Shown here piece by piece: positions 51,339 through 53,841 of a stretch of DNA of 64,000 bases (position 1 is its first letter; every line of letters starts with the position of its first letter). The notes below the pieces were generated by a model. It searched no databases and was not told the origin of the DNA. It saw only the letters and a program-made list of their open reading frames with translations. Both the position numbers and the translations under genes were made by a program. Origin of the DNA: Haloterrigena gelatinilytica (GTDB taxonomy: Archaea > Halobacteriota > Halobacteria > Halobacteriales > Natrialbaceae); contig NZ_JABUQZ010000001.1 in the NCBI RefSeq assembly GCF_013342145.1, positions 2,108,001 through 2,172,000 of the forward strand, written 5' to 3'.

Positions 51339-52262
51339 GTGAACCGGACGGAGCCTCGCGAGTCCCCGCGCCTGATCGCGACGTTCCGACGCACGCGATC
51401 GGTCGCCGTCCAGTGGGTCGTCGTCTCTACGGTCGGCTTTTTCGGCTTCGCCTACCTGTTCGGCCACGTCCGTGCGGCGATTCTGGGCACGTCGCTCGAG
51501 CCGATCGTCGTGCCGGTGTTCGCGCCGCCGGACGCGGTGCCCTGGCTCGTCGCCTCGGCGGGTCTCGTCGCGCTGATCGTCGTCCCCCACGAGCTGCTCC
51601 ACGGCGTCTTCATGGCCCGCTACGGCGGCGACGTCGGCTACGGAGTCGACGTCGCGTACTTCGTCCTCCCGTACGCCTACGCGGAGACCGACGGGACGAG
51701 CTACACGCGCAACCAGTTGCTCGTCGCCCTGCTGGCGCCGTTCGTCGGCATCACGGCCGTCGGACTGGCGGCGATGATCGTCCGCCCCTCCCCGCTGGTG
51801 ATCGTCCCGCTGGCGGCCAACGCCGCGGGCTCGATCGGCGACCTCTGGATGGCCGGCGTCCTCCTGCAGTATCCCGCGGACGTCCGCGTCGGCCCGCTGC
51901 CCGACGGCGACGCGCAGGGCTTTGGCATCTACGGCTCGGAGTCGATACCCGCAGGCGGCCGCCGGCCGGAAATGCGGTTCCTCTCGCGGCTCGTCGTCGG
52001 CGCCGTCGGGACGCTGGCGCTGCTCGCGACCGCGCTCGTCGCGACGGTGTTCGTCTCGCTGGCCGCCGGCTCGGGGACCGTCGTGATCGGCGAGCCCGGA
52101 ACCCGGTGGTTCCTCTTCCGTCACGAACTCGCCTCCGGAGCGGGGGCGGTCCTCCTCGAGTTCGGAACCGTCGCGGGACTCGCCGCCGCGGCCGCCGGCG
52201 GACTCGCGTGGGCGGGGGTCCGGGAGTGTTATCGCGCCTTCGTCCTCGATCGGATCGATTGA
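51339..52262 (+). CDS. DUF3267 domain membrane protein, metalloprotease-like
   Basis: A 307-residue membrane protein from GTG 51339. Six or seven hydrophobic helices carry the HExxH-type motif PHELLHGVF (about residues 86-94), followed by VDVAYFVLPYAYAET and, later, ANAAGSIGDLWM, where an Asn/Asp ligand is expected. DUF3267 proteins resemble membrane-embedded site-2-like zinc proteases, but activity is not shown. It lies 53 bp before a PadR regulator in the same direction, so they may be cotranscribed. Confidence 0.82.
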   Translation: MNRTEPRESPRLIATFRRTRSVAVQWVVVSTVGFFGFAYLFGHVRAAILGTSLEPIVVPVFAPPDAVPWLVASAGLVALIVVPHELLHGVFMARYGGDVGYGVDVAYFVLPYAYAETDGTSYTRNQLLVALLAPFVGITAVGLAAMIVRPSPLVIVPLAANAAGSIGDLWMAGVLLQYPADVRVGPLPDGDAQGFGIYGSESIPAGGRRPEMRFLSRLVVGAVGTLALLATALVATVFVSLAAGSGTVVIGEPGTRWFLFRHELASGAGAVLLEFGTVAGLAAAAAGGLAWAGVRECYRAFVLDRID

Positions 52263-52314: not shown

Positions 52315-52614
52315 ATGAGCAAGTGGCTCCGGAGCGGCCGCCGCCGCGACATCTGTTTCCTGCTGGCCGGGTCCGAGGACGGCGAACTGCGAAGTCAGCA
52401 GCTGAAATCGCGCCTCGAGTCCCACTACGACGAGCACCTCGAGCCGAAGTCGTTCTACGGCTCGCTGTCGGCGCTCGAGGACGCGGGCTTCGTCGAGAAA
52501 CACACCGAAGGGCTGTACGACGTTTACGCGCTCACCGAGGCCGGCGAGCGGCGGGTCCGGGACCACTACGAGTGGGTTCGGGACTGTCTCGAGGACGACG
52601 ACGCGAGCGAGTAG
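52315..52614 (+). CDS. PadR family transcriptional regulator
   Basis: A 99-residue winged-helix regulator: RRRDICFLLAGSEDGELRSQ, KSFYGSLSALEDAGFVEKH and LYDVYALTEAGERRVRDHY, as in PadR proteins. It lacks a long dimerisation C-terminal helix but has a short one. PadR proteins sense small molecules or stress and often control a neighbouring membrane gene, here perhaps the DUF3267 protein. No ligand can be assigned. Confidence 0.82.
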   Translation: MSKWLRSGRRRDICFLLAGSEDGELRSQQLKSRLESHYDEHLEPKSFYGSLSALEDAGFVEKHTEGLYDVYALTEAGERRVRDHYEWVRDCLEDDDASE

Positions 52615-53135
52615 CCCGTTCGGTCGCCCTCGTTCGACGTCCGCGTCGACGGACGTGCCGTGACTGTCGGTCGAAACCGGCTGACTGCGGTCGGCGTTGC
52701 GCCCGTCTTGTCTTTCTCTCCGACGCAGTTCGTTGCGAGTCGACGCCGTCCGCTCGCTGACTGCGACCGTCGGCGGAGTCGTCGGAGAAATAGCGTGGAA
52801 TATATCGCCCCAACAATGTTATTCAGGCAACACTATTTAGTGGTGTCATTTATGCAACACCATCTCGAAATAAGATAATTTTGGATATGAAACCTAGGCT
52901 AGATTTAATTCGTATTCGACGAAATATAGACTCTGGAGAGGAGACAAGTACGGACGGCCGAATTCTGAACGGTGTTGCTAACGCGCGCCTCCGACGCCGA
53001 GACGTCGGTCACGAATCTGTTAGTAATCACAGACGATCAGCAATATACTAGATTCAACTGCGGATCAGTGTATGAACAATTTCACAAATTGGTAGAGAAG
53101 GTTTATGTTCGGCCAAATTCCTTCTCAATTACTGA
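52615..53135. other. 521-bp AT-rich gap with repeats
   Basis: From about 52794 to 53135 the DNA is clearly AT-rich relative to the window and encodes no supportable protein. It contains GCAACAC at 52827-52833, GCAACACC at 52854-52861 and the reverse form GGTGTTGC at 52971-52978, a CACTA/TAGTG inverted repeat (52831-52842), three CTAG sites (about 52900-53050) and the CAATTT/AAATTG operator at 53077-53091. The first part, 52615-52790, is GC-rich and empty. It may be the scar of a mobile element or a long control region. Confidence 0.6.
53077..53091 (+). promoter_or_regulatory. CAATTT-CAC-AAATTG inverted repeat upstream of DUF7344-type gene
   Basis: A perfect 6-bp inverted repeat with a 3-bp spacer (CAATTTCACAAATTG). 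It sits just upstream of the TATA word TTTATG (53102-53107), which is itself about 29-34 nt before the ATG at 53136. This position suits an activator or repressor site next to the BRE/TATA region. Confidence 0.5.
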
Positions 53136-53780
53136 ATGGTGCGAAACGTAGGACGTCGATCCCGCCCTTCGATAGAGTCCTCCGGGGATTCACGATCCGA
53201 CGAGCCGCGCGAACTCTCTCAGGACGAGATCTTCCACATCCTCCAGACGAATCGCAGACGAGACGTGATCGCCTATCTGCTGGACAGAACGGAAACGGAT
53301 CCCGTCAAGATGCGCGACATCGCCGAACTCGTCGCGGCGAAAGAAAACGAGACGACCGTCGAAAACCTGACCTCGACCCAGCGCCAGCGCGTCTACATCC
53401 CGCTGTACCAGAGCCATCTGCCGAAACTGGACGAGGAGGGGATCATCGAGTACGACAAACCCCGCGGCATCGTTCACCCGACCGATCGACTCGAGATCTT
53501 TCGGCCGTATCTCGACGCGGCGAACGCTACCGCCGGCGACGAACGGTCTACCGACGGCGCTCCTCACGGATCAGTTGCGCGTTCGAACAGCGAGTACTAC
53601 GTCGGGGCGATCGGCGCGGGCGTCGGTCTGCTGGCGGCCTCCGCGTCCGGTTTGCTCCCGGTTTCCGGACTGCTTCTCGCGGCGATCACCGTCGCGCTGT
53701 TCGGTCTGGCTCACGTCGCCGCGACGCTCGCCGTCCCCCGCTCGACCGACGGGGACGACGAAAGTCGCCCGCTCTACTGA
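53136..53780 (+). CDS. HTH protein with two C-terminal TM helices (DUF7344-like)
   Basis: A 214-residue protein. Residues about 28-120 form the DUF7344-type winged helix (LSQDEIFHILQTNRRRDVIAYL, TSTQRQRVYIPLYQSHLPKL, GIIEYDKPRGIVHPT), a family common in haloarchaea and thought to be transcriptional. An acidic linker leads to two transmembrane helices (AIGAGVGLLAASASGLLPV and LLLAAITVALFGLAHVAATL), so the regulator is tethered to the membrane. The TATA word upstream gives a nearly leaderless start. Its target genes are unknown. Confidence 0.82.
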   Translation: MVRNVGRRSRPSIESSGDSRSDEPRELSQDEIFHILQTNRRRDVIAYLLDRTETDPVKMRDIAELVAAKENETTVENLTSTQRQRVYIPLYQSHLPKLDEEGIIEYDKPRGIVHPTDRLEIFRPYLDAANATAGDERSTDGAPHGSVARSNSEYYVGAIGAGVGLLAASASGLLPVSGLLLAAITVALFGLAHVAATLAVPRSTDGDDESRPLY

Positions 53781-53841
53781 CGGGAGGCGTCCGAGCGGAC
53801 GGCCGTACGGGAGGGTACTCGATCGGCGATCGCTGGTCGTC

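Follow-up and report, generated by a model that had tools for sequence, protein, structure and literature searches.

Two elements, a BRE ('CGAAA') and a TATA box ('TTWT'), have been proposed for the core promoters of haloarchaea, and leaderless transcripts make up 72% of the coding transcripts of Haloferax volcanii, according to the available portion of PMC4983044. As for membrane-bound archaeal regulators, ArnR and ArnR1 of Sulfolobus acidocaldarius are membrane HTH proteins, and the accessible sections of the CsmR paper on such regulators (PMC13286277) make no mention of the DUF7344 family. The name DUF7344 was not found in the literature searched, where no role is given for this large family of predicted membrane winged-helix proteins. 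At least one DUF7344 relative was present in 95 of the 100 genomes searched (own genome counted). In the genome studied here (4.55 Mb), predicted winged-helix proteins of this kind form a large paralogous family, with 35 DUF7344-like matches at E 0.001.

The locus analyzed here carries one of these genes behind a long AT-rich region. Like the core promoters described for Haloferax volcanii (PMC4983044, same portion), it has a TTTA-type box near the start codon, preceded by an A-rich stretch that resembles a BRE; unlike them, its BRE reads GAGAAGG instead of CGAAA, and the AT-rich region further upstream is unusually long, the promoter here being predicted from sequence. The encoded protein shares with ArnR and ArnR1, as they are presented in the accessible sections of PMC13286277, an N-terminal HTH and a transmembrane part, a likeness in layout alone. 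The gene belongs to the same family (PF24035) as the other DUF7344 genes of Halobacteria and differs from them in its setting, a junction between a PadR-like gene and an acyl-CoA dehydrogenase gene that holds such a gene in this genus alone among 30 loci.

The GC content of positions 52794–53135 was 42%, as compared to 68% for the window (the whole stretch of 64,000 nt that was analyzed), which bears out the low-GC gap described by the first-pass annotation, and this gap was placed between the PadR-like open reading frame and the DUF7344 gene. Every short string that had been named there was also recovered in its place, namely GCAACAC at 52827, GCAACACC at 52854, GGTGTTGC at 52971, CACTATTTAGTG at 52831–52842, and CAATTTCACAAATTG at 53077–53091. 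The features considered are as follows:

52315–52614, + strand: PadR-like open reading frame, upstream neighbour (25 bits, just below the Pfam cut-off of 27)
52794–53135, no strand assigned: AT-rich upstream region of the DUF7344 gene (homologous region in four other genomes of the genus)
52817–52836, + strand: degenerate 20-nt direct repeat, copy 1 (contains GCAACAC; poorly conserved)
52844–52863, + strand: 20-nt direct repeat, copy 2 (contains GCAACACC)
52899–52908, + strand: CTAGATTTAA, first CTAGATTYAA box (CTAGATTTA kept in all five aligned genomes)
52971–52978, + strand: GGTGTTGC (in none of the four aligned relatives)
53048–53057, + strand: CTAGATTCAA, second CTAGATTYAA box (CTAGATT kept in four of five aligned genomes)
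53077–53091, no strand assigned: CAATTTCACAAATTG dyad
53095–53107, + strand: GAGAAGGTTTATG, predicted BRE/TATA core promoter
53136–53780, + strand: DUF7344 (PF24035) winged-helix protein with predicted C-terminal membrane helices
53842–54987, – strand: acyl-CoA dehydrogenase, convergent, downstream of the DUF7344 gene

Further upstream, an open reading frame at 51392–52262 encodes a membrane protein with an HELLH (HExxH) motif and without a Pfam match at E 0.001, which we take to be possibly metalloprotease-like from the meaning of the motif.

The product of 53136–53780 scored 94.1 bits against the Pfam model of DUF7344 over residues 33–113, above the curated cut-off of 27.8, and is thereby a member of this family. 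Its structure model (pLDDT 70.9 for the whole) has a confident winged-helix part at residues 29–134 and two C-terminal helices (152–170 and 178–198) of low to middling confidence (pLDDT ~46–75), and the hydrophobicity of residues 155–202 is sufficient for membrane spans. The membrane-tethered HTH gene that had been recognized downstream of the gap thus stands as a prediction, based on the winged-helix model together with the hydrophobic helices. A structure search with this protein returned no match at E 0.001 or better and weak winged-helix matches above this threshold, while no NCBIfam family was matched at E 1.

We read the gap as the 5′ regulatory region of the DUF7344 gene that is present here in five of the six genus genomes compared, and from the sequence comparisons we put the probability of this reading at roughly three in four. 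Most likely it is an ordinary, if long, upstream control region, most of whose repeats are not kept in related species. A 14-nt core-promoter-like motif begins 40 nt before the ATG of the gene. The predicted core promoter itself, GAGAAGGTTTATG, was exact in three of the five orthologues, whereas G002 differs from it at one position and G001 at two. In a Gibbs search over 100 bp of upstream sequence from 22 selected DUF7344 genes, 15 had a AGAAGGTTTAYG-like motif that starts between –40 and –44; it was not at this position in the other seven, among which L015 has it at –34 (the start codons of DUF7344 loci being estimates). The score was 250 (best of 12 starts) against 196–207 in five base-shuffled sets (best of 4 starts each), controls that are few and unequal, with fewer starts than the real set. 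These 22 loci were chosen out of 34 (L008–L041), the loci of the own genome (L042–L066) being excluded; 12 were left out as close orthologues (L009–L011), as near duplicates (L016, L017, L022, L025, and L033), or without a strict rule (L027, L029, L032, and L035). A putative A-rich BRE followed by a TATA-type box thus recurs at this distance before the start in many related genes, and both the position and the sequence of GAGAAGGTTTATG agree with a predicted BRE/TATA promoter of the haloarchaeal type. TFB and TBP would bind GAGAAGGTTTATG and give rise to a transcript whose leader is very short. Exact AGAAGGTTTAYG occurs at two places in the own genome (controls 0); at the second it stands 38 nt ahead of an ATG, as judged by eye. 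The exact 12-mer occurs too seldom to define a regulon, the motif of the family being less strict. The record of a core-promoter-like motif common to many DUF7344 members is one gain of this analysis.

The core promoter alone leaves the ~340-bp length of the AT-rich region unexplained, as most of the related genes have low GC chiefly over the final ~100 bp (by eye). The gap was shared within the genus: the same five genomes, own included, have both the gap and the DUF7344 gene, flanked together by the PadR-like gene on one side and the convergently oriented acyl-CoA dehydrogenase gene on the other. The distance from the PadR stop to the start codon was 521 bp in the own genome, 522 in G001, 521 in G002, 495 in G004, and 536 in G003, values taken from the match spans, as the aligned sequences of the relatives begin slightly ahead of the PadR stop. 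About 270 bp of the gap could be aligned across the five genomes. Among the four close genomes, 206 of 270 columns were invariant in 52867–53135 and 141 of 199 in the GC-rich spacer (52615–52793), i.e., a share of 0.76 vs. 0.71, and among all five these numbers were 139 of 270 and 64 of 199 (0.51 vs. 0.32). The segment that holds the repeats (52807–52866) was the least conserved part of the gap: of its 63 columns, 14 were invariant among the four close genomes and 7 among all five. The clustering of invariant columns did not exceed that of column shuffles (longest run, P 0.27; runs ≥ 8, P 0.10), and specific binding blocks are therefore not proven. The AT-rich DNA further upstream of the promoter would then be loosely constrained promoter-proximal sequence. 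Weak 24-nt matches to the gap in G008 and G068 fell within its GC-rich piece and were taken as chance.

How significant the repeats appear depends on the shuffle background, whole window or gap. GCAACAC occurs 8 times in the window, three of these inside the gap, against 2.67 expected, a number reached in none of 100 whole-window shuffles, and the palindrome (≤ 2 mismatches) occurs once against 0.02 expected (2 of 100 shuffles). Against 500 dinucleotide shuffles of the gap itself, some 7-mer was present three times on either strand in 19.2%, a perfect 6-3-6 dyad in 8.4%, and as many 6-bp dyads (spacer 0–20) as observed in 9.6%. The repeats hence look rare in comparison with the GC-rich window and weak in comparison with the AT-rich gap, the only uncommon one being the 20-nt direct repeat (16 of 20 positions identical between 52817–52836 and 52844–52863), which was equalled in 4 of 300 gap shuffles.

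The first-pass annotation had offered a multi-site control region for the HTH gene as one of its two readings. In the form considered here, GTGTY-N8-RACAC dyads within the 20-nt repeat and the CAATTT/AAATTG dyad would be the sites through which a regulator, possibly the DUF7344 protein, adjusts transcription. Apart from the rarity of the direct repeat and of the palindrome just given, this reading can draw on the single repeat copy of G004, which forms a perfect dyad (GTGTT-N8-AACAC) in the alignment, and on the nine places of GTGTY-N8-RACAC in the genome against one for the reversed control. The repeat, however, lies in that least conserved segment, ~273–319 nt from the start codon, and by eye no dyad of this kind remains there in G001 and G003. 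GCAACAC copy 1 was exact in two of the five aligned genomes, and GCAACACC of copy 2, GGTGTTGC, CACTATTTAGTG, and CAATTTCACAAATTG in one each; the CAATTT/AAATTG dyad was thus perfect in a single orthologue. In the ~450 bp upstream of 29 other DUF7344 loci (L013–L041), GCAACAC was found once (L035). Because the named operators are not conserved, the multi-site reading is not supported and we consider it unlikely, while a control region for the HTH gene in general agrees with the core-promoter-like motif common to related genes. In the alignment, the repeat unit is single in G004 and double in the own genome, which suggests that ~27 bp were duplicated in the other lineage or that G004 lost a copy; under our preferred reading, the GCAACAC copies would be the remains of such a local duplication rather than functional repeats. 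Equal gap lengths in relatives and repeats without conservation, the combination that the same annotation had set against its own two readings, are largely what was observed, the enrichment of repeats near promoters having been checked for DUF7344 genes only.

Two CTAGATTYAA boxes stand 149 bp apart in the gap, and the 10-mer occurs five times in the genome (control 1). CTAGATT is present at both places in the own genome, G002, G003, and G004 with spacings of 149, 149, 149, and 147 bp, respectively, and the second box of G001 differs by one base. If they were a genuine paired binding site, they could be bridged by a membrane-anchored DUF7344 regulator, or by some other factor, in a DNA loop that controls its own gene, which we regard as quite improbable; as the invariant runs are not more clustered than chance, the conserved pair is a candidate lead only. 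The other three places of the 10-mer, viewed as lists of open reading frames, had no common theme that we could see.

That the gap encodes a small RNA or a small peptide is less probable still, even with ~270 bp alignable in five genomes. Three open reading frames of ≥ 20 codons were considered in the own genome. The 27-codon one (52795–52878) is also open in G002 but broken in three of the four relatives, and the longest (52887–53051; 54 codons) is broken in all four. For the one on the reverse strand (52905–53030), the frame is open in G001 and G002, yet its start codon is lost in both of these and in G004, while G003 keeps the start and is interrupted by a stop late in the frame, at codon 39 of 42. 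No Rfam family matched the gap at E 1.

Hardly credible, finally, is the other reading of the first-pass annotation, the scar that a mobile element left behind on its loss, GCAACACC and GGTGTTGC being the terminal repeats, since the sharp drop in GC near 52800 (200-base windows) and the 8-bp inverted pair that the two form at 109 nt are outweighed by a gap of similar length in five of the six genus genomes, four of them without these repeats (inverted pair in one of the five aligned genomes, gap in all five, so that the supposed ends are not conserved), by the lack of a match in plasmid and phage collections at E 0.01 (from which records very near the own genome may be left out), by the gap matching only itself in its own genome, by a 20-nt repeat without a third copy within 3 mismatches, and by a genome-wide count of GGTGTTGC (154, i.e., 71 + 83) near that of its reversed control (133). 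The pair pattern GCAACACC-N(0–30)-GGTGTTGC had no occurrence in the genome, at a spacing limit shorter than the 109 nt of the local pair and hence with no bearing on pairs spaced like it. Another inverted pair of GGTGTTGC was seen among the matches listed (of 154), at C1:2306684 (+) and 2306806 (–). A false lead is thus removed, as the repeats are unlikely to be either the ends of an element or conserved operators.

The upstream control region of the DUF7344 gene, our preferred reading of the gap, has a particular genomic setting. PadR matches were obtained in 57 of 61 genomes, and the best 30 were taken as loci for the comparison of the junction. The five loci with a DUF7344 gene all belong to this genus, and the junction was without one in the other 25, including that of G005 (E 1e−6, ~1.5 kb on each side); eight of these 25 had no acyl-CoA dehydrogenase match within the ~1.5 kb examined. 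G005 gave no match to the gap, the match ends of its PadR and dehydrogenase genes are separated by 43 bp, and, in a comparison for target-site duplications, the bases of this short junction could not be aligned by eye to the flanks found here. Because the 25 other PadR loci have no DUF7344 match, the simplest view is that the gene was added to the junction along with the AT-rich region upstream of it, an addition that was probably gained in the genus and is absent or lost in G005. The DUF7344 gene and its promoter would have entered the junction as one unit.

This analysis also puts on record that the short genes held between these two conserved, convergent neighbours vary from one haloarchaeon to another. 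The match ends of the convergent genes were separated by 25 to 700 bp in the 15 DUF7344-free junctions inspected, several of which appear by eye to hold other short genes. At L088 and L093, ~1.4 kb separate the PadR-like gene from the dehydrogenase, leaving room for another gene. The PadR/dehydrogenase junction (52615–53841 here; loci L073–L096) looks like a variable slot that is nearly empty in some haloarchaea, and its contents elsewhere, as judged by eye, seem to include a cold-shock-type gene (L086), a lipoprotein-like gene (L096), and small membrane proteins (L074, L078, and L082).
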